Virus record (IMG/VR): IMGVR_UViG_3300037584_002976
Location: 1-29,670 of that record
Reading direction: 5' to 3' (one strand)
From: a virus
DNA: 29,670 nt
The position numbers and the translations under genes were made by a program. The notes under the pieces were generated by a model. It worked only from the letters and a program-made list of their open reading frames with translations, was not told the DNA's origin and did no database searches. Shown here in pieces: positions 14,285 to 26,729 of this stretch. Numbering within the stretch: the first letter of the stretch is position 1; every line of letters starts with the position of its first letter.

Positions 14285-16072
14285 TTACGGATAGCTTTTC
14301 ATTACATCGCTCTCTACTGCAAACAGTTCCGTAGCCTGAGTATTAAAGTTCGTGATAGTAAATATACAATAATGTCCTAGTAAACCATGAGATTCAGCCT
14401 CAGAACTTTTAATAAACAAAATGTATGGGTCGTTTAGCGGAAAAACAACTGTGTCAGCTGCAGTCGTACTTACTATTAATTGGTTTATTCCATTAGGTAA
14501 GTCTACATTTATTTGAGTAACCACACCACCAAAAGTAACATCGGTATATTGTGGTAGGGAGTGGTATACATAATCTCCGACACTTATAAAGCTACCTATA
14601 GAAACAAGGGGGTTTGTAGAAAAGCTTAGCGTAGTTGTTCCTTGATTTATAGCTACGTTTGAAGTCTTACCTATACCATTAGCTGACCTCATAGCATATT
14701 GACCTTTTAATGCAGGAACTTCCCCTTTTTGTCTGAGGTATGCAAACCAAGCTCCCTCCTTTTTTTCAAACCAACCATCTTCCATAAAACCATTTATCTG
14801 AATATCTGTTTCAAGATAAGACTCCCACGCATCATTAGATTCTAAGTTTAATGTTTTGTAAATTTTATTTTCTAATGGGTTTTGATTAAACACACTTGTT
14901 ATTTGTGAGTTATATTGTTCTCCATAATAATTGTTTCTTTTTTCATTTACATTGTGCTGATATAAATTACCTCCTTGAAACGTGTAAAAAAAGTTATTCA
15001 TACCTATCATATATTCAGGTATGTAAGAGTAAAATGATGGCCAACCTTTAGAGTTTTGACTATAACTAACTGTCCACTCTGTATCTACTGGTGAAGGTAT
15101 TGGTGGAACTACACTAGGTGGAGCTGGCGTTGGTATTACGGGGGTTGGTGTGCCGGGTTGAGATGGGTTACAATCTGTGTTAAATCTTAAATTATTTTCC
15201 CCTAAAAAGTATTGTCCGTTTGTAGACTCGGGATATAATGTTTGATAGCTTATTACTCCAAAATCTTGATTTACATTTAATGTAATTGTGCCAGAGTAAA
15301 ACGCATAAGTATTTCCATCTAAACCAACTGCATTTCTTTCTAATTTTGTTCCCGTATAAGATATTTGATTTTCTTTTCCATTATTTAAAAAAGCTATAGG
15401 CCACTCTGAACTTACACCAGTTATTTGATATATTCCGGTGTTAACTTCATAATTACCCCACTCTCCATTTATAACATAATATCGTACTGTAACGTTTTCA
15501 AATTCTCCTATGGTTGCAGTTCTACTAAAAACCGTTAGAGAGTTTGTAAAACTTAAACAATACTGACCAGTTCCTGGTGACGGAGTAGGAATAGGACTTG
15601 GCGATGGAGTAGGGGCTATAGCTGCATTACAAGTAGCACAATCTGCATACGTCGGTATGTTGGCAATATCTAAATAAGATATGTTAGTAGTGCTTACACC
15701 GTTTGTCCAACATATAGATTGATATGCTAAACTGGAAGGCCACGCTGTAAAACTTGAAGGCGCTCTAAATATTTGTTTTTGACTTGCTGCATTACAGTTT
15801 TCATATTCATAGTAAATATAACCTTCAATAGGGGTTGGGTCAGCATCTCCACAGTTTGTTTCGCAATTCTGTTGTACATCATAATATATTCCATATAAAG
15901 AAGTAGGTTCTATTTTTGACCCCCTTTGTAAACAATAATTCTCAATACCATTAGCTGGTACTTTTATATTTATTTTTGTACCATCACAACATGTTACTAC
16001 CCAGGTACATTGACCTTGTTCATCTCCTATTTGGTCAATAGGGCAAGAAAAACTAATAAGAGAACATGCCAT
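14285..16072 (-). CDS. Modular tail protein with Cys modules and Pro-Thr/Ser linkers (595 aa)
   Basis: The protein starts with two Cys-containing modules: residues 10-75, and residues 83-148 ending in CATC. The second matches the repeated Cys module of the 863-aa protein (IFRxxxxF...ICW...YADCATC). A (T/S)P linker at 153-166 leads to a beta-rich domain (170-300), then a second Pro-rich linker at 305-329. The last 265 residues begin GWPSFYSYIPEYM...NNFFYTFQGGNLYQHN...YYGEQYNSQ. This resembles a C-terminal domain I associate with muzzle/stabilisation proteins of related phages, here apparently on a separate polypeptide. It is probably a tail fibre or tail-tip component. It lies directly downstream of the hydroxylase/radical SAM/glycosyltransferase cassette and is a likely substrate of it. 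Confidence 0.65.
   Translation of the reverse strand: MACSLISFSCPIDQIGDEQGQCTWVVTCCDGTKINIKVPANGIENYCLQRGSKIEPTSLYGIYYDVQQNCETNCGDADPTPIEGYIYYEYENCNAASQKQIFRAPSSFTAWPSSLAYQSICWTNGVSTTNISYLDIANIPTYADCATCNAAIAPTPSPSPIPTPSPGTGQYCLSFTNSLTVFSRTATIGEFENVTVRYYVINGEWGNYEVNTGIYQITGVSSEWPIAFLNNGKENQISYTGTKLERNAVGLDGNTYAFYSGTITLNVNQDFGVISYQTLYPESTNGQYFLGENNLRFNTDCNPSQPGTPTPVIPTPAPPSVVPPIPSPVDTEWTVSYSQNSKGWPSFYSYIPEYMIGMNNFFYTFQGGNLYQHNVNEKRNNYYGEQYNSQITSVFNQNPLENKIYKTLNLESNDAWESYLETDIQINGFMEDGWFEKKEGAWFAYLRQKGEVPALKGQYAMRSANGIGKTSNVAINQGTTTLSFSTNPLVSIGSFISVGDYVYHSLPQYTDVTFGGVVTQINVDLPNGINQLIVSTTAADTVVFPLNDPYILFIKSSEAESHGLLGHYCIFTITNFNTQATELFAVESDVMKSYP
15575..15616 (-). repeat. (T/S)P-encoding linker repeat in the 595-aa tail protein
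   Basis: These bases encode residues 153-166, alternating Pro with Ala, Thr, Ser or Ile (PTPSPSPIPTPSP), seven prolines in 14 residues. A second, less regular Pro-rich linker of the same protein (residues 305-329, eleven prolines) is at 15086-15160. Confidence 0.7.
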
Positions 16073-16091
16073 AAAAAAATTTATTTGTTTA

Positions 16092-16099
16092 CAAATTTA
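16092..16099 (-). promoter_or_regulatory. -7 element TAAATTTG upstream of the 595-aa gene
   Basis: In the 44-bp gap between the glycosyltransferase and the 595-aa gene the minus strand reads CGTAAATTTGTAA, an exact TAnnTTTG match that shares flanking bases with the copy at 28792-28785 (CGTAACTTTG). A -33 TTTG is not evident. Confidence 0.4.
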
Positions 16100-16116
16100 C
16101 GAATTATTTAGCTTTG

Positions 16117-16956
16117 TTATTTTATATAGGTATTTATAAAAGCATTGTAATCTTTAATCCAATTTTCAGCTGACCTTTTAGAACAATTTAAATTTTTAGC
16201 ATCTGGCCAGAAATTTATTTTATCTGCTTTTGGTCTATACATTTCTCTATAATTGTCTACACCAGGTACAAAATACTTATGCCAAATTAAATTTTCACTG
16301 GGAGCGTATATGTCAATACCACATTTGTAAAGCATTAAACTATAAAGTTCTTGTTCACATTCTCCATAATATGTATAATCATCTACAGTTATAGAGTTTA
16401 CTATATATCCTCTTCCAAACATATTACCACCTGATATGTTCATGATTTGTTCATTCTCTTTTTCAGCTAACTTTTGTTGATGAGGGCCTTTAAAATTTCC
16501 CACATAAGGAATTTCATTTGGTATATAAATAGAAGATAAGTTTCTTTTACTATAAACTTCGTAAGATTCATTAAAATGATATTCTCTTGGAAACCCACTT
16601 ATCACGCTTTCAGTTGGAGTTTTATTGAGCATGTTTATATACTCAACATCCCAACCAATTTTAAATCTACTATGACTATCAACTAATAAAAAATAATCTT
16701 CATTCTTATACAACTCTTTCATTATTATATTTCTAGCCCACCCACAACCTTCTGCATTTTCAGGTTGTACATGTTTTACTTTAATGTTTTTATTTTGAAA
16801 TTGTAATTTAAATTTTTTATTTACCACTTCTGTATCTTGTAAAAAAACTCCTGCATAAATTCTTTGCGGATTAGTAGCTCTTTTAAATAAATCATCAACT
16901 GTAATAAATATTTCTGAATCTTGATATGAAGCTATGCTTACAAATATTGATTCCAT
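16117..16956 (-). CDS. Glycosyltransferase of the Skp1-Hyp GlcNAc-transferase type (GlcNAc/GT60-like)
   Basis: The 279-aa protein begins IFVSIASYQDSE and continues with LFKRATNPQRIYAGVFLQ. Later come GCGWARN at 70-76 and a DSHSRFKIGWD motif at 93-103, whose Asp-Ser-His stands where a DXD metal/UDP-sugar motif is expected, then SGGNMFGRG at 175-183 and GECEQE at 198-203. This series matches the GlcNAc family (Pfam GlcNAc, CAZy GT60), whose founding member in Dictyostelium adds GlcNAc from UDP-GlcNAc to a hydroxyproline of Skp1 in the cytosol. There is no signal peptide or membrane helix. The start follows the radical SAM stop by one base. With a prolyl hydroxylase two genes upstream and Pro-rich tail proteins on both sides, the likely acceptor is hydroxyproline in the tail linkers. 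Glycosylation of Ser/Thr or of a surface glycan is the alternative. Confidence 0.78.
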   Translation of the reverse strand: MESIFVSIASYQDSEIFITVDDLFKRATNPQRIYAGVFLQDTEVVNKKFKLQFQNKNIKVKHVQPENAEGCGWARNIIMKELYKNEDYFLLVDSHSRFKIGWDVEYINMLNKTPTESVISGFPREYHFNESYEVYSKRNLSSIYIPNEIPYVGNFKGPHQQKLAEKENEQIMNISGGNMFGRGYIVNSITVDDYTYYGECEQELYSLMLYKCGIDIYAPSENLIWHKYFVPGVDNYREMYRPKADKINFWPDAKNLNCSKRSAENWIKDYNAFINTYIK

Positions 16957-16957
16957 A

Positions 16958-17860
16958 TTATTTTATAATTGCAGATGAGCACTCTTTACATATAGAATTA
17001 AATGCTCTTTTATTAACTAAATCTCTCTCTTTGGAAAACCATATTTCTTTTATTGTCTTATCTTTTAAGTTACCATAGCTATACTCCATATAATAATCAT
17101 TACAACATAAAAAAACATCACCTTTTGGAGATATGTGCAACCACTCTGAATCCCTTTTAACACTACAACCAATTACTTCTCCTTCAGGAATATTATTAAG
17201 CATGACATCTTTTAACAAACCTGCTCTATCTATCAAGTTCCATTGCTCATATATTTTAATTGATGGAAATAATTTTTTGGCAATATTAACTTGATTTTGC
17301 ATTTCATTTTTTTCTAAATCTGGGAAGTTTTTTAGTTTAATTATATTGGAATGTTCGTTTATACCATTTATATGTAGTAATAACAAATCGGGATTATATA
17401 AATTATTTAAAGCATAATCTATGTTTCTAATTAGTTTGTCAAACATAACCTCTTTCATTCCAGTTCTTTTTTCAAATAATCTTTTTTCATATACAGGCGC
17501 ATTGATTGCTATCATACTAACAGCAGGTTGATGTTTGTTAATTAAGTCAATCTTTTGTGGTGTGAGGGGGACTCCATTGGTTAATATACCTATTGTCAAT
17601 TTATTTTTATTTAATATTTCCAACATTGATTCAAAATGTCTGTACAACAATACCTCATTAAAATGTGAGCCATAAATAAAATGCAGGTTTGGGTTTATTA
17701 AATCTCCTTTTAAATTTACAATTTCAGATATAATTTTATCTAACAAATTTATATCCATTTGATTAATTTGATTCTTTGGATTTCCTAAAGTGCTTACTGG
17801 ACAAAACCAACAACCTGCATTACATAAACCATTTGGGTCTAACTGTATGAAGTTTATCAT
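16958..17860 (-). CDS. Radical SAM/SPASM enzyme
   Basis: The 300-aa protein carries the radical SAM cluster motif C13-x3-C17-x2-C20 (CNAGCWFC), a TNG motif at 94-96, and a C-terminal SPASM-like region: C232, then ISPKGDVFLCC with C252/C253, then GNLKDKTIKEIW, then C291-x2-C294. The last cysteines would bind an auxiliary iron-sulphur cluster. SPASM enzymes commonly modify peptides or proteins (thioether or C-C crosslinks, epimerisation, Cys/Ser oxidation), though some act on small molecules. The gene sits 2 bp after the hydroxylase and 1 bp before the glycosyltransferase, so the three are surely co-translated. I infer a third modification of the Cys/Pro-rich tail proteins, but the reaction cannot be read from sequence. 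Confidence 0.82.
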   Translation of the reverse strand: MINFIQLDPNGLCNAGCWFCPVSTLGNPKNQINQMDINLLDKIISEIVNLKGDLINPNLHFIYGSHFNEVLLYRHFESMLEILNKNKLTIGILTNGVPLTPQKIDLINKHQPAVSMIAINAPVYEKRLFEKRTGMKEVMFDKLIRNIDYALNNLYNPDLLLLHINGINEHSNIIKLKNFPDLEKNEMQNQVNIAKKLFPSIKIYEQWNLIDRAGLLKDVMLNNIPEGEVIGCSVKRDSEWLHISPKGDVFLCCNDYYMEYSYGNLKDKTIKEIWFSKERDLVNKRAFNSICKECSSAIIK

Positions 17861-17862
17861 TG

Positions 17863-19095
17863 TTAAATGTACTTATAATGAACATCAAGAGTTCTGTAAG
17901 AATTACCTTCTAAAGGTTCTTTTCTACCGTGTTCACAAATTGCAGATTCATATATTATCATGTCACCAGGTTCTGCATATATTTTATACCATTCACCGTC
18001 ATGACCCATTATATCTAAAGGCCAATCGTTTCCATATTTTTTATTTTGACATCCACATTTTAAATTTTTATCTACAATTATTATAGAGCTTACGTGATTA
18101 GATTTAAAATCTTCATAAGTAGGAGTTATTGTTTCTCCTTTTTGATATGAATTTATACCTTGTATTAATGAAGGTTTTATTGGTTGATTGTTTATCCATT
18201 CTTTATGGACTAATAGTAATTGAGTTTGTATTAATTTTTTTATCGAAGGTAAAACGTCAAGTGAAAACTTATTTGCGCTTTCTTCTTTTTCTTTCAATAA
18301 TTTGTATGTGTCATTAATTATATTCCACGTTTCAGGTGGACATTTTTGCAATGCAAAACCAAGTTCAGTGTGTTTGGAAATTTGCTCTTTAGATGTAAAA
18401 ACTTTTGGCTCTAATTTAGATACAGGTTTTTCTTCTTGTTTTATTAATTCTGATGCTTTTACAACATAAGATTTATTAATAGATTTTCCTTCTTCTTTTT
18501 GTTGTTTTTGAGAATCATAATACAATTGCGCATCCCCCGCTCCATCCCAAGGTTTTTCTCTCCACCATGATGTAACAACATATTTTTTACCTTCATCTAC
18601 TGTAACGCCTTCATGCAAATATTGTTCTTGTACTTTTCCATCTTTTAAATTATGCCACCACAAAGCTTTGCCTGTCTCAGGCTCTATAGTTTTTTGTAGT
18701 GTTGGAAAATATGTGCCCCCACCTTTGTACCCCTCGTTTAAATAAATCATTAAAGTGTGTGTTCTATTACCTGATGCTTTACAGTGCATGTCGTAAGCAG
18801 GCCCACTAAAAAAATCATTGTGTGGTTTAAAGTATTGACCTGGTTCATAGAGCTGTCCCTGTATAGCTTCTCCTTTATTTAATTCTAACCCTAAAGTTTC
18901 AGATATTCTTTTTTTTAAATTTAACAAAACAGGGTTTGTCATATCTAAATTAGAAGTGCTTGAAGTTCTGTGGTCTGTAACATCAGTTCTATCTGTACCT
19001 CCAACAACAACAGATGAACGAGTATGATTAGCGTCAATCATTTTAATTAATTCTTGACATTCCTCAGGTGTAATATAATTGTGTATTTCCTCCAT
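17863..19095 (-). CDS. Prolyl 4-hydroxylase-like 2OG-Fe(II) oxygenase, two-domain
   Basis: Residues 1-185 form a prolyl 4-hydroxylase catalytic domain: HRTSS at 42-46 (like the family's RTSSG), the iron ligands H92 and D94 in PHNDF, distal H161 and 2OG-binding K171 in HEGVTVDEGKKY, plus GGGTYFP at 125-131. A charged linker (195-235) leads to a second 2OG-oxygenase-like domain (235-410) with HVSSIIIVD, WPLDI, PGDMIIYES, EHGR and a VHY ending. There the HxD motif reads YED (327-329), so the first iron ligand seems lost while H389 and R391 remain. It may be a non-catalytic or substrate-binding domain. The enzyme would convert Pro to hydroxyproline using O2 and 2-oxoglutarate. It lies between two tail genes encoding (T/S)P linkers and opens a three-gene operon. 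Other protein substrates remain possible. Confidence 0.82.
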   Translation of the reverse strand: MEEIHNYITPEECQELIKMIDANHTRSSVVVGGTDRTDVTDHRTSSTSNLDMTNPVLLNLKKRISETLGLELNKGEAIQGQLYEPGQYFKPHNDFFSGPAYDMHCKASGNRTHTLMIYLNEGYKGGGTYFPTLQKTIEPETGKALWWHNLKDGKVQEQYLHEGVTVDEGKKYVVTSWWREKPWDGAGDAQLYYDSQKQQKEEGKSINKSYVVKASELIKQEEKPVSKLEPKVFTSKEQISKHTELGFALQKCPPETWNIINDTYKLLKEKEESANKFSLDVLPSIKKLIQTQLLLVHKEWINNQPIKPSLIQGINSYQKGETITPTYEDFKSNHVSSIIIVDKNLKCGCQNKKYGNDWPLDIMGHDGEWYKIYAEPGDMIIYESAICEHGRKEPLEGNSYRTLDVHYKYI

Positions 19096-19116
19096 TTGAT
19101 TTGATTTAAATTCAAA

Positions 19117-19146
19117 TAAAGTTAATGATTATTATTTATAAACAAA
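19117..19146 (-). promoter_or_regulatory. Promoter of the modification cassette (TTTG...TAACTTTA)
   Basis: On the minus strand TTTTTG at the 3' end of the 863-aa gene is followed after 18 bp by TAACTTTA (19124-19117), a Bacteroidota-type promoter with one mismatch in the -7 box. It precedes the hydroxylase ATG by 21 bp. The cassette could thus be transcribed on its own as well as from upstream. Confidence 0.5.
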
Positions 19147-19148
19147 AA

Positions 19149-21740
19149 CTATGGACATTCAGTAATTGTACATGAGCTTGTGAATGAACTACCATTCCAA
19201 TATCTATAGTAGCTACCAGTATTATAATATCCTGCTAAAGCTCCTCTTGTACAAGCGCTATCTCTATATAATAAAGTTGCAGTACAGAAATCAGTTGTAT
19301 TCATAAAGTATCCAATACTTAAACTACAAGTAAAACTTGGAACTGGCGATGGACCACTCTGGCTTATATACTCTAAGCTTACCGAATTACAAGCAGGGGT
19401 TGGAGTTGGTGTTGGAGTCGGCGTAGGCGTCGGACTCGGTGTAGCTTGACAATCTAAACATAGATTGAATGAAGCATACGCTAAATACGAACCATCAGTG
19501 CCAGTTCCTGCGTTTGAGTCAAATTCAAAACATATCGAACCACTTTTTAATACATTAGGGAATGTTGTGCCAAACGGCGCACTTACCTCTAGTATATTAG
19601 ATGGGTCATTACAATCTAAGTACAATCCATATATAGTACTCGGAGGTGTCGGTGTTGGAGTCGGTGTCGGTGTTGGAGTCGGTGTCGGTGTTGCCGGTGT
19701 ACAATTTGCACATGAGCCATAAACATTTAGTGTTGTTACACTACAATCAGTAACAGTATTTACTGCTATAATTTCCCAACATTTACTTCCATCAAATCCT
19801 GATTGACATGAACCACCAGCTCCACCTGATATCTGTAATGATACTCCAATTGCATTTGATTGATAAGTTCCAGCTACTGTTATATATGCAGTTCTGTTAG
19901 CATCAGCACAATCTCTTACTTGAATGTTAGTGGTTGGAGCAGGAGTCGGCGGTGGAGTTGGCGTTGGCGTTGCAGACGAACAGCTAAGTATAGTTAAGAC
20001 TTCTCCTAAAGAGTTTATTAAAAACTTACTGTCTGATGATTGCGGTAAATATCCTAAAGTATTAGATATACTGAAATATTCTAAACCTCCGTTGAAAACA
20101 GTTGTTTTAGAAGAGTTAGCATACAATATATCTCCAACTACAATTTGTGCAACTGTTGCTCTATTAGAAAACACAAAGTAATTTGTTCTTGCGTTACAAG
20201 CGGCTGATAATGTATACCCTCCCTGTGGTAAACCATTTATGAATAATGATGGGTTTTCACAATCATAACAAGTATTAAAATTGCTTATTGATTCAACATC
20301 TACATTTGATGTTGCTGTTGTTGATTGTGGATTAGAGTAACATATATTATTGTATTTAACAACATTAGGGAAACTTGCTGTTGTACTAAGTTTTCTAAAT
20401 ACCGCTGTTGTTGATGTTTGACATTCAGTATATGTAGCATAATCATAGGTTGGTATTGCTCCACAAGCTGAACAATCGCTATACGCAGAGTTTAGAGATA
20501 CGGTAGAATCATAAGATGTCGCCGCGTTGTCAATAACTTCCCAACAATCTGTATTTGTAAATTCAGGATTTGGTGCGCTTGCTACTCCTGTAATTTTTAT
20601 AGAATTACTATTTCCTAAAGTTGGCGCAGTTAAACCTGTTACTCTTACTTTGTAAGTTGGTGTTGTAGTAAAACATTTTCTTATTTCTACATCCTGAAAT
20701 GTTGGAGCAGGTGTCGGAGTAGGGCTAGGTGTTGACGCATTACAATCAACAATTTGAATAACTTCTCCTACATCTCTAATCAATAAAGCATAACCATTAT
20801 CAGGATTTGGATATTTTCCTGTTGTATCTGTAACCCCATACCATTTTAATTGTCCAGCCCAAACGTTACTTAACCCTGAATCTGTATAAACAATATCACC
20901 TACTACAATTGATGCTACATTTGCTCTTGTTGTATACATGCTTATTGATGTTTGTGAAGCACAAGCATTAGCTGGAGATGTTTGACCATTTCCTGCTGTA
21001 TTAGTAGAAAATATTTGTGTCCCAGGAGCTGGCGTTGGTGTTGGACTTGGAGTTGGTGTTGGACTTGGAGTTGGACTAGGTGTTGTAGCTTCACATGTAG
21101 CACAATCTCCATAAGAAAACGTAATATCATTAGTGCTCGTAGAGCCAGTTACAGAAGCAGAAGAGTAACAAAGATTGTTATCTTTAACAACAGCTGGGAA
21201 CGAGCCACCAGAGACTAATCTAAATATTTTAGTAGTCGAACCACCACATAAAGTATACTCTCTATAGTCATAAGCAATAGGCGTAGGTGTTGGTGTTGGA
21301 CTTGGAGTTGGACTAGGTGATGGACTTGGAGTTGCAGCTCCACACTGAGTACAATCAGTATAACTTACAAGACCATTTACATTTATAATAGATGTTAACC
21401 CAGTAGCTTGCGGGTTATGATAACAAATACCATTATACTCAACAGTAGGTGGAAAAGTTCCTCCTTGAACAATTCTAAAAACTTCATTTGGATTCACACC
21501 ATCACAGGCTGTGTATACTCTATAATCATATACTGGAGCTGGCGTTGGTGTTGGACTTGGAGTTCCACAATTTGGACAATTTTCTTCAGCAAATAAAACA
21601 CCAGACGCCTGTTGTCTTACAATTGTTTCGTCTGAATACCATCCATCAGGAGCAAATGTACTTAGCGCTGCATCTGTAAATAATGCAGTCGCAGTAGAAA
21701 AACTTACTGAGCTATAATAATATGTTCCTAATGCTGCCAT
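19149..21740 (-). CDS. Modular tail/fibre protein with Cys modules on seven Pro-Thr/Ser linkers (863 aa)
   Basis: Eight segments are joined by (T/S/A)P linkers at residues 60-69, 137-154, 220-239, 337-346, 591-602, 681-700 and 767-782. Three module types recur. Type A (YDYxxYTxC...IFRxxxxxSFPxVVKxNNxCY...CxxC) occurs near 71-133, 157-216, 432-494 and, diverged, 703-764. Type B (ANVASIVVGDIVYTDS...GEVIQIVDC) occurs at 260-333 and 515-587. Type C (VEIRKC...DCWEVI...CxxC) occurs at 350-426 and 606-680. The N- and C-terminal segments (1-58, 783-863) resemble each other (TATxLxxDxA). Modules end in CxxC or paired Cys. It follows the muzzle gene and is probably a tail fibre or spike that binds host glycans. 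The adjacent hydroxylase/glycosyltransferase cassette likely modifies its linkers. I see no chaperone or enzymatic domain. Confidence 0.7.
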   Translation of the reverse strand: MAALGTYYYSSVSFSTATALFTDAALSTFAPDGWYSDETIVRQQASGVLFAEENCPNCGTPSPTPTPAPVYDYRVYTACDGVNPNEVFRIVQGGTFPPTVEYNGICYHNPQATGLTSIINVNGLVSYTDCTQCGAATPSPSPSPTPSPTPTPTPIAYDYREYTLCGGSTTKIFRLVSGGSFPAVVKDNNLCYSSASVTGSTSTNDITFSYGDCATCEATTPSPTPSPTPTPSPTPTPAPGTQIFSTNTAGNGQTSPANACASQTSISMYTTRANVASIVVGDIVYTDSGLSNVWAGQLKWYGVTDTTGKYPNPDNGYALLIRDVGEVIQIVDCNASTPSPTPTPAPTFQDVEIRKCFTTTPTYKVRVTGLTAPTLGNSNSIKITGVASAPNPEFTNTDCWEVIDNAATSYDSTVSLNSAYSDCSACGAIPTYDYATYTECQTSTTAVFRKLSTTASFPNVVKYNNICYSNPQSTTATSNVDVESISNFNTCYDCENPSLFINGLPQGGYTLSAACNARTNYFVFSNRATVAQIVVGDILYANSSKTTVFNGGLEYFSISNTLGYLPQSSDSKFLINSLGEVLTILSCSSATPTPTPPPTPAPTTNIQVRDCADANRTAYITVAGTYQSNAIGVSLQISGGAGGSCQSGFDGSKCWEIIAVNTVTDCSVTTLNVYGSCANCTPATPTPTPTPTPTPTPTPPSTIYGLYLDCNDPSNILEVSAPFGTTFPNVLKSGSICFEFDSNAGTGTDGSYLAYASFNLCLDCQATPSPTPTPTPTPTPTPACNSVSLEYISQSGPSPVPSFTCSLSIGYFMNTTDFCTATLLYRDSACTRGALAGYYNTGSYYRYWNGSSFTSSCTITECP
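19395..19442 (-). repeat. TP-dipeptide linker repeat (residues 767-782)
   Basis: In-frame hexanucleotide-like repeats encode eight alternating prolines in 16 residues near the C-terminus of the 863-aa protein. Confidence 0.75.
19641..19700 (-). repeat. TP-dipeptide linker repeat (residues 681-700)
   Basis: This is one of the two longest Pro linkers, with ten prolines in 20 residues. On the plus strand it appears as alternating GGTGTT/GGAGTC/GGTGTC units. Similar shorter arrays of the same gene are at 19935-19970, 20703-20732 and 21534-21563. Confidence 0.8.
21024..21083 (-). repeat. TP/SP linker repeat (residues 220-239)
   Basis: These bases encode ten prolines alternating with Thr, Ser and Ala. 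Its DNA shares long identical runs with the linkers at 21279-21332 and 21534-21563, consistent with module duplication or recombination between linkers. Confidence 0.8.
21279..21332 (-). repeat. TP/SP linker repeat (residues 137-154)
   Basis: Nine alternating prolines in 18 residues join the first two type A Cys modules of the 863-aa protein. Confidence 0.78.
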
Positions 21741-21751
21741 TTATAATTTTA

Positions 21752-21759
21752 CAAAGTTA
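21752..21759 (-). promoter_or_regulatory. -7 element TAACTTTG upstream of the 863-aa gene
   Basis: The 24-bp gap between the muzzle and 863-aa genes holds TAACTTTGTAA on the minus strand, ending 11 bp before the ATG. It matches TAnnTTTG exactly. No clear -33 box is seen. Confidence 0.45.
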
Positions 21760-21764
21760 ACCAT

Positions 21765-24700
21765 TTATCCTGAACATCTTGAATCCCCACATCCTGATAC
21801 TTGAACAATTACTTCTCCGTTTTGTCCCGTAGTTGCACTATCATATAAAGACGCACATCTTGTTATTGAACCAAATTGATATTGTACCTCATCTCCCACA
21901 ACGATACCTAATGTTTGATTTGCTTTTAAATATACTGCCTGTAAACTTACACAATCTATACCTAAGAAGTAATCATATACCGGGACTGGCGTAGGCGTAG
22001 GCGTAGGCGTAGGCGTAGGCGTTGGAGCTGGTGTAAATGTACAGCTACAACATGCGTCAGCTATATTTATCGTTGAATAACAAAGCTGCTGACCTAAAGA
22101 ATTTCTTAAGTCATATATTAAATACAACTTATTACCATTGCCAGGTAAACCAAATTGAGCGCTAAATAAATTCGGAGCTCCGCTAGTATTTATTGGGGTT
22201 GCTTGTACTGATGCTGCTAATAAAATACTAATATCAGTTGAGTTGTTTTGATATAACGCATCAGTTCTTAAATATCTAAATTCATTTTCAGTAGCGTCAA
22301 ACTGGAAATTATCAAAATTAATTTTATTACTTCTCATTGTAATAACCGCTCCATCAGGTGGTATAACACCTGAAGCTTGAGGGCCTTCTAGTTCTCTGTA
22401 TTGAGAAACTATTGGGTCGCTTGGACTTGCTAAAAATGTAACTAAATCTGATTGTGTCGGAGAGGTTACAGTTGAATCTGCCCAGCTAAATTCAGTATGT
22501 GTAAATTGACCTGCGTTAGCATTTGTGCTAAGAGTAATACTGTATACGCTAAACAACTCTTCTTCAGGACATTTAACTGTCACTTGAATTGTGTCGTTTA
22601 CAATTGAATCAGATGAAATAATCATAACGACTTCAGTTGGCGTTGGGTTAGGTTTTGGAAATTTAAGTGTTCCACTTTGATAAACAATACCCGATGAATA
22701 TGTAACACCATCATAAATAGCTTGAACCACGTATCCAGTACCTGTAACCTGTCCCTCTGTTTCAATATCAACACCTGCTTCTGAAACTACTTGTTGTTCA
22801 GTTCCCTCAGTTACAATTAAATCTGTATTTTCAAATGGAATAACATAATCAATTTCAACAAAATATGTTTTTGATGGAGGCCCTATTGTCTCTCCTAGTT
22901 CAACACAATAAACAAATTCTTGTCCTGCAACAATAGTAATATTCTTAGTAACACCACAAGCAGTACATAGTTGAGTTTCCGGTTTGATAATTGTATTTGT
23001 CGTAAAAACATACTCTTGCATGTATGGGTCATAACCACCTAGTTTTTGTGTAGATGATGCTTCTGCAAACAAATCTCTAAACCAACTTCTCATACCTTCA
23101 TTAGATACTACAGTTAGTATTTCGTTTTGCGCAGAGCTACCTGTTAACTTTATTATAACGTTTCTTTTTGCATCAGAGAAATATTTATTTTCTCCAAATG
23201 TTGCAAAACTTTCTGGGTGATTACTAATTCCAAACTCTTCTACTCTTGCTATTTGTGTGCCTAATACTTCAGGAACAGATGTAACTACACCACCTCCAGT
23301 AGAATCTGATAATAAGTTTTTACCAGCAAGCACATAAGATATCTTGTCTTCTTGTAATACTAAGACATCTGTTTTTCTTGCAAATAATATTTCAACATCT
23401 CCATAAGTTTCTTCTAATGGTTTAAAGTTTACTAAACCTAAATTAAATTCATTTAATCTGTTTACATTTGATTCATCATTAAAGACACCACTGTATGTAA
23501 TGTCAGCAAACCTGTGAGCTGCTTTAAATTCTTCGTTAGATGTTGTAAAAATTCTGTTTCCTAAATTAAAAGATTTACCTTTTATAGAATCTCTAATCCT
23601 ATAGCTTTCAACACCGTTTCCAAAACTATAACAATTTGTAAACCCAGGGTTTACAATTGCTGATTGAAAAGAAGTTTGGTTTTGTACATTTCCTAAATGT
23701 AATCCATTACTAATATCAAATGACTGACTGTTTTCATACCAAGCGTCAGGCAAAGCATCTTGAGGTTCTGTTTCAAAAACATAAGTTGCACCATCACCTC
23801 TATATACCGTAAATGACACTTCAAGCATAGATTCTTCATTTTCAGAGCTACCTGCAGAGTACGAACCTGATACTAAGAGAAAAATTAAATTGTTTCCATT
23901 TGCATCTTGAGTACTAGTATCTTCGTAAAGTCTATAATAAAAGTTATCATTAAAATCTAATATTGCAGGTGTACCTCCTCCAAATAAATTATTTCCTCTC
24001 AAATCAGAATCTTGTTTACAAGCCTCATGTATAATTTCATTAGCAGCAACCCCTAAAGGAGCAGCTCCATTGTTAACTTGAGGTGAGATAAAAGTGTTTT
24101 CTATTGTTTGTACTTGACCTGGGTTTTTTACACCGCTATCTAATATACTAGCAACGTTATCACCAATAAACCAATTAGCCATGTTGGTGTAATTAGTTGA
24201 TGCAGTAAGCGTTTTTTCTAGCGTATAATTTCGTTTTCCATCTGCTCCTGTTCCAGTTCCATTTCTTCTCATCTCAACCCTCATAACTATCCTACTTCCA
24301 ACTGGTACATCATACACATTATAAGTAGGAGTTAGTGGAGATGGTCTATTTACAGTTGTAAAAAAAGGAAAAGCTACAGTAGGTATCTCTCCATCGGTTG
24401 TACAGGTTTTTTTCACGGGGTCAACAGCAATAACAGCATTAGGGTCTTGTATAGAAGAGAAATTAGATGCGTTTATTTTCATGTATACCCCACCTATTAC
24501 ATCTACTTGAGTACCAGCCGCATCAAAAATAGATATAAACCCGCTTGACTGTGCTTCTTTTTCTAACACTGTGGCTCTTATACATCTTGATGTTGGCCCA
24601 GTATTGTCAGCTTTTACAATTAAATTGTCACCTGCTTCAACTTTAGCAGCATTTTCACCATCTAATAAAAAGTAACTTGAACTAGATACTGTATCTCTAT

Positions 24701-26729
24701 ATGCAACATTACTATAGATTGTTTCATAAGTTTCTTTAGTAGGTTTTATAACAAATTTATATTTTGTTGCCCATGCCGGCGCTTTCATTGACGCAGGTAT
24801 ATCTACTTGTATAGAATTTCTATCAATAGAATTACTACATGGAATATTAATTGACCCTCCATCTTCTGCACTACTTACTAGAGCTGTTGATGCTCGGTTG
24901 TAATCATCCATATAAACAATACCTACCTCATAACCTCTATTACTGTGTAAACTTTCAGCGTTTGAGCTATCTCTAAAAGAAGCAGTTTCATTTACTATGC
25001 CCCAGTAAGCGTAACCAGAGTTTCCTGCTCCAGAGTAAAATGCCGCTAAGTTTTGTATTTGTAAAACATTTGAGGAAGTACTTGCTGTAGCTACTAAAGC
25101 TTGACCAGCGCTTGGTGAACTTGGTGTTGCAGAAGTTATTCCTGTCTGCAACAAACTGTATGTAGAATCTAAATTTTCTGGTACAGTTCTGTTAAAGACA
25201 TCTGTTAAAGTATTACCAAGTCCAGCTTGAGCGTTTGCAACGGTTTGTATTGTTCCATTTACACCATCTGTTCCTATTTTTTCTTGAAAATCTGTACTTG
25301 TAACAAAATCAAATACATTCGCATAATCATCTATTAAAGTGTAAGACCATGTAAGCTCAAATACAGCTGTAGTTGGTGTAGGGTCTATAGATGGAGGGAT
25401 TTTTTCAAACTCAAAAAATGTTATGCCAAAATTTAAAGTTAATCTTGTTCCTTTTTTTAATTTAGATTCACCGGTCATTAAAGGACTTAAGTCAACATAT
25501 AATACTGAATCTGAAATAGATTTACTTGTAGATGTAGGAGTATATGTAAATTGTCCAGTGTCTGCATACGCTGGTGTATCAATAAGCGATATTGGCTCTG
25601 ACTTAAGGCTTGCAGTAAAGTTTAAATCTATACTAGCTCCATTGCTGTCTTTTAAATCATAACCTTCCATATAGTTACCATACATCAACCTATTACCCAT
25701 TAATGTTTGTGCCTTAGCTAATTGAGGAACATTGTCATAAAGTCTTAGAATTTCTGAGTCAGGTAATACAGTAAATATTTCTCTATTAGTAAAATTATAT
25801 TCTGTGTTTGTGTTGTTTATACTTCCTAAATCTCTTTTTTTATTTAAAGTTTTTATAACTTTTATAGACGTGCTATCTGCTTCTTTAAACAATAATTGAA
25901 CATCTGTTACACTGCTACTTCCAGTATTAAATGTAATTTGTACAGCATTGTTTTGATTTACCATTCCTTCATTTAAATAACTATTTGTAGTAAAATCAAA
26001 ATTACCAGGCGTAAATGCTGGCTCACTAAACTGAGAGATAGCTGAAAATTCATTATTAGCATACTTATATCTATAAGCAAAACATAAAAACTTATCTTCT
26101 AAATACGCATCAGTGATACTTGAAACAAAATATGGTAGTACTGCTGGAGCGCTTGTAGGAGGTTTTTTAATTACTAAAATATCATCTTGATTAAATAAAT
26201 CAAGGTTAACACCAAGTAATGGGTCTCCGTAGTTTTGATTTATATTAATTACTCTAGGAGGATTAGTGTTGTCTGTAAAAAATAATAAATCATCTATTTT
26301 ATCTACTCCTGTAATTAAAAAATTTGGATTAAAGTTTAATGTAGTGTTTACGCCATTGCCGTCATTAACACTAATTACATGATATATTAGCTGACCAGTT
26401 TCAACATCAAATGAAATAATTAAATCTAACTTACCCGTTGCTCCTTGAGTAAAAGCCGGGTCATGAACAAACCAATATAAAGCTAAATTAGCCCCGTCTT
26501 CAAATGCACCTATACATCTAGCCTGTGAACTTAATTTAGTTCCATCAACATATTGAAGTTCTGTTAGAGGTAAATTTCCTTTTGAATTTTCAACAGCACC
26601 AATCTCAGAATCTTCAGTAGAACCAAGTCTTACATTTACAGCATTTATATACTCTCCATTTGGGACAAGCCTTTCATCAAGGCTTTTATTCATACGGCCC
26701 GCTACAAAATTTCTCTGAATGTTTGCCAT
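21765..26729 (-). CDS. Tail muzzle / stabilisation protein (P22 gp10-like, crAss-type) with C-terminal TP linker and Cys domain (1654 aa)
   Basis: The N-terminus (RNFVAGRMNKSLDERLVPNG, then YINAVNVRLGSTEDSEIGAV at 27-46) is the hallmark of the beta-propeller-rich muzzle/stabilisation proteins that follow the ring proteins in crAss-like and related marine podovirus genomes (P22 gp10 role: closing the tail tube). Further motifs of this type include FTDNTNPPRVININ and NRLMYGNYMEGYDL. It is unusually long. The C-terminus bears ACCSC, then a TP linker at 1566-1583 (nine prolines), then a 71-residue Cys domain (YDYFLGIDC...CGDSRCSG) that resembles the Cys modules of the next gene. These additions look like a fused decoration or fibre-docking unit. 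It starts one base after the ring-protein gene stop. Confidence 0.75.
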   Translation of the reverse strand: MANIQRNFVAGRMNKSLDERLVPNGEYINAVNVRLGSTEDSEIGAVENSKGNLPLTELQYVDGTKLSSQARCIGAFEDGANLALYWFVHDPAFTQGATGKLDLIISFDVETGQLIYHVISVNDGNGVNTTLNFNPNFLITGVDKIDDLLFFTDNTNPPRVININQNYGDPLLGVNLDLFNQDDILVIKKPPTSAPAVLPYFVSSITDAYLEDKFLCFAYRYKYANNEFSAISQFSEPAFTPGNFDFTTNSYLNEGMVNQNNAVQITFNTGSSSVTDVQLLFKEADSTSIKVIKTLNKKRDLGSINNTNTEYNFTNREIFTVLPDSEILRLYDNVPQLAKAQTLMGNRLMYGNYMEGYDLKDSNGASIDLNFTASLKSEPISLIDTPAYADTGQFTYTPTSTSKSISDSVLYVDLSPLMTGESKLKKGTRLTLNFGITFFEFEKIPPSIDPTPTTAVFELTWSYTLIDDYANVFDFVTSTDFQEKIGTDGVNGTIQTVANAQAGLGNTLTDVFNRTVPENLDSTYSLLQTGITSATPSSPSAGQALVATASTSSNVLQIQNLAAFYSGAGNSGYAYWGIVNETASFRDSSNAESLHSNRGYEVGIVYMDDYNRASTALVSSAEDGGSINIPCSNSIDRNSIQVDIPASMKAPAWATKYKFVIKPTKETYETIYSNVAYRDTVSSSSYFLLDGENAAKVEAGDNLIVKADNTGPTSRCIRATVLEKEAQSSGFISIFDAAGTQVDVIGGVYMKINASNFSSIQDPNAVIAVDPVKKTCTTDGEIPTVAFPFFTTVNRPSPLTPTYNVYDVPVGSRIVMRVEMRRNGTGTGADGKRNYTLEKTLTASTNYTNMANWFIGDNVASILDSGVKNPGQVQTIENTFISPQVNNGAAPLGVAANEIIHEACKQDSDLRGNNLFGGGTPAILDFNDNFYYRLYEDTSTQDANGNNLIFLLVSGSYSAGSSENEESMLEVSFTVYRGDGATYVFETEPQDALPDAWYENSQSFDISNGLHLGNVQNQTSFQSAIVNPGFTNCYSFGNGVESYRIRDSIKGKSFNLGNRIFTTSNEEFKAAHRFADITYSGVFNDESNVNRLNEFNLGLVNFKPLEETYGDVEILFARKTDVLVLQEDKISYVLAGKNLLSDSTGGGVVTSVPEVLGTQIARVEEFGISNHPESFATFGENKYFSDAKRNVIIKLTGSSAQNEILTVVSNEGMRSWFRDLFAEASSTQKLGGYDPYMQEYVFTTNTIIKPETQLCTACGVTKNITIVAGQEFVYCVELGETIGPPSKTYFVEIDYVIPFENTDLIVTEGTEQQVVSEAGVDIETEGQVTGTGYVVQAIYDGVTYSSGIVYQSGTLKFPKPNPTPTEVVMIISSDSIVNDTIQVTVKCPEEELFSVYSITLSTNANAGQFTHTEFSWADSTVTSPTQSDLVTFLASPSDPIVSQYRELEGPQASGVIPPDGAVITMRSNKINFDNFQFDATENEFRYLRTDALYQNNSTDISILLAASVQATPINTSGAPNLFSAQFGLPGNGNKLYLIYDLRNSLGQQLCYSTINIADACCSCTFTPAPTPTPTPTPTPTPVPVYDYFLGIDCVSLQAVYLKANQTLGIVVGDEVQYQFGSITRCASLYDSATTGQNGEVIVQVSGCGDSRCSG
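21981..22034 (-). repeat. TP linker repeat in the muzzle protein C-terminus
   Basis: On the plus strand five consecutive near-identical units of GTAGGC (21989-22020 region) encode alternating Thr-Pro, flanked by APTP and VPV. The perfect 6-bp periodicity means slippage would change linker length by whole dipeptides without a frameshift. Confidence 0.8.

Follow-up and report, generated by a model that had tools for sequence, protein, structure and literature searches.

Why would a phage of bacteria encode a prolyl 4-hydroxylase (P4H)-like enzyme among its tail genes, and what would that enzyme act on? The question is raised by positions 1 to 29,670 of the viral record IMGVR_UViG_3300037584_002976 (hereafter the window, 29,670 nucleotides in all), in which an operon encoding a P4H-like oxygenase, a radical S-adenosylmethionine (SAM)/SPASM enzyme, and a glycosyltransferase of the GT60 type lies between genes for tail proteins with linkers of repeated X-Pro units. 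The best reading of this locus, and in our judgement a probable one on comparative sequence evidence, is that prolines in these linkers are hydroxylated and that the same tail linkers are glycosylated by enzymes exchanged from phage to phage. We computed the family membership of the enzymes, the conservation of the active site, the constant position of the oxygenase, its association with linkers, and the turnover of the other enzymes.

The oxygenase operon and the X-Pro linkers of the window

The operon consists of three genes (protein lengths in amino acids, aa):

17863..19095, minus strand: P4H-like 2-oxoglutarate (2OG)-Fe(II) oxygenase, 410 aa (Pfam, PDB profile, alignment, and fold search)
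16958..17860, minus strand: radical SAM/SPASM enzyme, 300 aa (Pfam; CNAGCWFC motif; C-terminal cysteines C232, C252, C253, C291, and C294)
16117..16956, minus strand: GT60-type transferase (PF11397), 279 aa (Pfam, 9.5e-43; alignment with conserved DSHxRF motif)

As described in the initial annotation, which was made from the letters alone, the operon is tight: the open reading frame (ORF) coordinates give gaps of 2 and 1 bp, with all three genes on the minus strand. Profile searches with the four families named there all returned matches, namely 2OG-FeII_Oxy_3 (6.9e-13), Radical_SAM (3.8e-9), SPASM (1.1e-10), and GlcNAc (PF11397, as listed). The proposed kinship of the oxygenase with P4Hs was likewise upheld, every PDB sequence match being a P4H. 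A profile built from 27 homologues matched P4Hs exclusively (best 1.6e-35), including those of Bacillus, Chlamydomonas (with a (Ser-Pro)5 peptide entry), and PBCV-1 and the human collagen P4H; a PDB search with the single sequence agreed, and P4H topped the list when the predicted structure was searched with Foldseek. The model has a pLDDT of 77 and a pTM of 0.47, so how its two domains are placed relative to each other is uncertain. By these comparisons, the oxygenase is closer to P4Hs in sequence and predicted fold than to other 2OG oxygenases.

The N domain of the window oxygenase contains the iron triad HxD...H and the 2OG-binding lysine, and the four residues singled out initially (H92, D94, H161, and K171) are invariant across the 27 aligned homologues. 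The HxD of this domain is found in all 80 distinct copies examined, if the preceding residue is allowed to vary. A second, C-terminal 2OG-like domain has its own HxD, intact in 77/80 copies and gone in the window and in the related loci L002 and L005 (HxE in L005), all three of which carry the radical SAM enzyme and GT60. A scan of host genome contigs with the profile of the oxygenase alignment retrieved no homologue. The radical SAM enzyme has both the CxxxCxxC motif and the SPASM domain, and against NCBIfam equivalogs every score was far under cut-off, yielding no named equivalog of known substrate. The transferase scored 147.4 bits against PF11397 (curated cut-off 21), with the DxH motif conserved as DSHxRF; the GT60 profile found no match in PDB.

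An oxygenase paired with a glycosyltransferase could also be thought to act on phage DNA, and some phages do modify their DNA by oxygenation and glycosylation. The window transferase matches the TET-associated glycosyltransferase very weakly (E 0.12, under cut-off). However, the matches of the oxygenase are to prolyl hydroxylases rather than TET/JBP, the genes lie in the tail module, and the enzyme sets vary through protein-directed families (see below), so DNA hypermodification ranks low and we hold it to be highly improbable.

The tail proteins and their linkers are as follows:

21765..26729, minus strand: muzzle N part, 1654 aa, linkers near the C-terminus (phrog_14478, 7e-218)
21981..22034, minus strand: linker TPAPTPTPTPTPTPTPVP
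19149..21740, minus strand: modular tail protein, 863 aa, seven X-Pro linkers of at least four units
21534..21563, minus strand: linker TPSPTPTPAP
21279..21332, minus strand: linker TPSPSPSPTPSPTPTPTP
21024..21083, minus strand: linker TPSPTPSPTPTPSPTPTPAP
20703..20732, minus strand: linker TPSPTPTPAP
19935..19970, minus strand: linker TPTPTPPPTPAP
19644..19691, minus strand: linker TPTPTPTPTPTPTPTP
19395..19442, minus strand: linker TPSPTPTPTPTPTPTP
14285..16072, minus strand: muzzle C part, 595 aa, linkers ahead of the crAss_MUZ_C domain (PF25729, 5.4e-18)
15575..15616, minus strand: linker APTPSPSPIPTPSP
15089..15136, minus strand: short X-Pro runs IPTPAP and PPIPSP, ahead of the muzzle C domain

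The initial count of ten linkers with about 80 prolines agrees with ours of 82 prolines in 13 X-Pro runs (at least three units) across the three tail proteins. Runs of at least four units contain 71 X-Pro units; when the residues were shuffled 1000 times, such runs held 0.26 units on average and never more than 8. Thr-Pro is encoded by ten different hexamers, placing the pattern at the protein level rather than in a DNA microsatellite; selection acts on the protein sequence of the linkers and not on a DNA repeat. The linkers have the clustered, non-contiguous (S/T/A/V)P arrangement that serves as a criterion for plant-type hydroxyproline-rich glycoproteins.

In phages phi38:1 and elemoF, the muzzle is a single gene with both parts end to end (the two parts occupy residues 1-1072 and 1078-1323 in phi38:1). 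The window muzzle is instead two genes, split around the linker gene and the enzyme cassette, and the stretch added at the split joint (about 15089-23003; hereafter the slot) holds the enzymes, the 863-aa protein, and all linkers. The crAss-like assignment comes from the two muzzle matches listed above (the crAss muzzle C-terminal domain and the virion family phrog_14478). The relatives of the window are phages of Cellulophaga, Flavobacterium, and other Bacteroidota, and by these sequence matches the slot belongs to a marine crAss-like phage family.

The oxygenase and its exchangeable neighbours in related phages

We retrieved 80 viral loci using the oxygenase as query and 32 using a divergent copy (overlapping in part), along with further loci via a neighbouring 306-aa structural gene in a search blind to the oxygenase; removal of duplicates left 112 distinct oxygenase-positive loci. 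The position beside Pro-rich tail linkers, noted initially for the window, proved fixed throughout the phage family. Pro-rich linkers are present in 52/52 oxygenase-positive loci with the whole slot visible, and the gene directly upstream of the oxygenase is P-rich in 100/105 visible cases. The other five upstream neighbours comprise four on short or cut contigs and that of L461, which has a small intervening gene. Oxygenase-positive L026 and L426, both short contigs with cut ends, have no P-rich stretch. A small gene of 137-147 aa was seen just before the GT60 or oxygenase gene in L117 (9283-9726), L480 (9694-10137), and L461 (17257-17670).

As an oxygenase-negative control, we read 24 loci, of which 20 have GT60 and 4 lack it; when 25 oxygenase-negative records, many of them fragments, were searched with PF13640, none matched. 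Whole slots hold a median of 58 X-Pro units in the 52 oxygenase-positive loci versus 2 in 18 negative ones (Mann-Whitney p=2.4e-9, a value that ignores kinship). A four-residue gap makes up 19% of proline-to-proline steps in oxygenase-negative GT60 phages versus 2% in positives, and strict X-Pro spacing is weak or lost in most oxygenase-negative relatives. P-rich linkers, GT60, and the oxygenase are all absent from phi13:2, phi19:3, and the Manatee Spring phage.

The genes between the oxygenase and the muzzle C part vary. Sets with GT60 pair it with the radical SAM enzyme, fuse it to a GT32-like domain, or combine it with a protein O-fucosyltransferase (O-FucT)-like enzyme and an epimerase. 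Sets without GT60 contain a transferase resembling hydroxyproline O-arabinosyltransferase (HPAT-like), alone or with a sugar-nucleotide dehydratase, or a GT32-like enzyme; another combines O-FucT with a carbamoyltransferase and a small PhyH-like oxygenase. At five loci the oxygenase stands alone between linker proteins with no further enzyme, which points to hydroxylation as the core step. Under the constant oxygenase, the tree shows at least 23 changes in the class of enzyme set, and L436 and L465, whose muzzle parts are nearly identical, have exchanged sets (radical SAM enzyme and GT60 versus an HPAT-like gene and two others, one of which resembles, by eye, a DegT-type sugar aminotransferase). 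The protein-directed character initially proposed for the transferase gained breadth from these relatives, in which GT60 is joined by HPAT-like and O-FucT enzymes. The O-FucT match in the slot (PF10250) reached 49.9 bits against a cut-off of 31.5, and two members, not including the window, passed the PF23452 cut-off of 23.9 for HPAT-like proteins (33.3 and 25.2 bits). A modest fold prediction for the HPAT-like protein (pLDDT 69) matched GT-A transferases such as GT6 and LgtC.

Proposed substrates of the oxygenase and its partners

From these patterns we infer the linkers as substrate, 4-hydroxyproline as product, and the addition of glycans. The constant part, the P4H-type oxygenase, would hydroxylate prolines in the X-Pro linkers of the flanking tail-tip (muzzle) proteins, and the variable part, a swappable group of sugar enzymes, would decorate these linkers too, presumably within the cytoplasm of the host ahead of assembly. 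In the window the variable set would be GT60 and the radical SAM/SPASM enzyme, the latter acting on peptide or sugar. The phage would likely gain linkers that are rigid and resist proteases, and whose sugar surface can be changed.

Several observations weigh against this reading. On the muzzle tree, the oxygenase was gained or lost only about three times, which leaves thin independent support; much of the statistical signal could come from kinship, and an independent-pairs test of oxygenase versus linkers had too few changes for any power. L117 and L480, inside the positive clade, are without the oxygenase and keep 91 and 75 X-Pro units (both slots are partial, and both carry the long GT60). 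In the survey of relatives proposed in the initial annotation, linkers accompany the oxygenase in every whole-slot carrier, but linkers also occur where the oxygenase is missing. When viral contigs were selected solely for a Thr/Ser-Pro repeat at the DNA level, only 3 of 50 had PF13640 (47 were without), so Pro-rich linkers alone do not predict a hydroxylase. In other phages with related P4H domains, no annotated tail gene adjoins the P4H: the neighbours in Erwinia Y3, Salmonella Sen-NF, and Microcystis Mel-JY01 code for asparagine synthase, belong to DNA metabolism, or are unnamed, and, judged by gene annotation, tail association is thus not general for phage P4Hs. Finally, several members match HPAT only weakly, and some do not match it at all.

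The small number of state changes would also fit linkers and oxygenase that were simply co-inherited within a single clade and are functionally unrelated, since kinship alone could yield the statistics. A bystander, however, would hardly have retained both its place in the slot and its catalytic residues through at least 23 exchanges of the neighbouring genes, nor would one expect strict X-Pro spacing to weaken or vanish in most oxygenase-negative relatives, and we regard mere co-inheritance as unlikely.

The enzymes could alternatively act during infection on proteins or a surface polymer of the host rather than on the phage tail. GT32-like, epimerase, and carbamoyltransferase genes occur also in surface polysaccharide pathways, Pro-rich linkers exist without the hydroxylase, and a PDB entry for the sequence-nearest bacterial P4H (5v7y) is titled as modifying elongation factor Tu. 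Such a role would need neither a fixed place in a split muzzle gene beside linker proteins nor P-rich linkers in every whole-slot carrier; it too ranks low, and we find a host target improbable, somewhat more so than co-inheritance.

If the tail linkers are hydroxylated and glycosylated, GT60 of the window could place its sugar on hydroxyproline, on Ser/Thr, or on both. A GT60 of about 405 aa lies in the same slot, without the oxygenase, in sister loci L117, L118, L131, L134-L137, L139, L143, L145, L152, L157, L160, L161, L439, L443, L444, L466, L473, and L480, whose linkers are weak or Thr-rich. A PF13640 search detected no P4H anywhere in 15 sister records with GT60, and the acceptors of those enzymes may differ. 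Among oxygenase-positive phages, the median Ser/Thr share of the X residues is 0.75 with GT60 and 0.53 without; by set, the share is highest for GT60 with the radical SAM enzyme (0.85), followed by 0.46-0.53 for HPAT-like sets and 0.39 for carbamoyltransferase/O-FucT sets without GT60. Independent pairs for GT60 versus Ser/Thr that differ all do so in one direction (3.7 to 0, p 0.125).

Because GT60 occurs in hydroxylase-free sisters and accompanies Ser/Thr-rich linkers, Ser/Thr acceptors are at least as likely as hydroxyproline. The two activities may then be uncoupled in the window, with the oxygenase only rigidifying the linkers and GT60 adding N-acetylglucosamine (GlcNAc) to Ser/Thr in mucin-type fashion. 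The GT60 family covers both mucin-type and Skp1-type enzymes (PMC8724618, PMC6939170). Nevertheless, the short window GT60 is distant from the long sister-clade GT60 (about 25-31% identical), acceptors can differ inside the family, and oxygenase and GT60 share one operon in the window; we consider uncoupled activities a serious contender, a little short of an even chance. The initial annotation had favoured a Skp1-like order, with GT60 acting on hydroxyproline; this did not fare well, given GT60 in hydroxylase-free sisters, some of them without strong linkers, and the Ser/Thr-rich linkers that go with it, and for the window's GT60 a Skp1-like reading is possible. Some HPAT-linked phages have VPVPVPVP linkers, which offer no hydroxyl except on a modified proline, favouring hydroxyproline as the acceptor beside HPAT-like enzymes. 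Both kinds of acceptor may be present on one linker. More tentatively, and as the less expected outcome, these could be true plant-type hydroxyproline-linked glycoproteins in bacteria: a single constant hydroxylase would set hydroxyproline anchors along the linkers, on which rapidly exchanged GT60, HPAT-like, O-FucT-like, and GT32-like enzymes would write differing glycans and so switch the glycans of the tail tip.

Comparison with described systems

A viral enzyme that first hydroxylates and then glycosylates a repetitive protein is the Mimivirus L230 lysyl hydroxylase/glycosyltransferase, which differs in acting on lysine in collagen-like repeats and in belonging to a giant virus of amoebae. 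Plant and green algal extensins and arabinogalactan proteins resemble the phage system in their clustered X-Pro repeats, P4H, and (in some phage relatives) HPAT-like transferase, but they are made in a eukaryotic secretory pathway, whereas the phage version would be made in bacteria. The PBCV-1 P4H (5c5t) is virus-encoded and of the same fold, but belongs to an algal virus and comes with no linked transferase set and no tail linkers. In the Skp1 pathway of Dictyostelium and Toxoplasma, a cytoplasmic P4H is followed by a GT60-family GlcNAc-transferase, and later transferases including a fucosyltransferase extend the glycan (PMC8724618, PMC6939170). The pairing of P4H and GT60-family transferase (PhyA/Gnt1) is that of the window; unlike the phage repeats, Skp1 is modified at one proline on one eukaryotic protein, and the phage transferase is swapped and occurs also without the hydroxylase. 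Phage-encoded transferases have been proposed to act on virion proteins of mycobacteriophages (PMC11256854), for which the open-access accounts describe no prolyl hydroxylase and no exchangeable slot within a tail gene. Searches of open-access papers yielded no phage hydroxyproline glycosylation system, subscription papers being outside the scope of the search.

Hydroxyproline in viral proteins was reported by Eriksson 1999, as cited in PMC9301287, which also lists P4H with the auxiliary genes that viruses in Baltic Sea water carry most abundantly and calls its use cryptic. For this phage group at least, the locus family would provide the viral P4H with a definite substrate that can be tested, the phage's own tail linkers. 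If this is true, phages of bacteria contain hydroxyproline-based glycoproteins, and the slot offers a naturally occurring library in which protein-glycosylation enzymes come with matched substrates and are expected to be functional in the bacterial cytoplasm. Separately, in L294 (Xanthomonas phage XacN1), an unrelated jumbo phage, a carbamoyltransferase gene adjoins a GT60-like gene.

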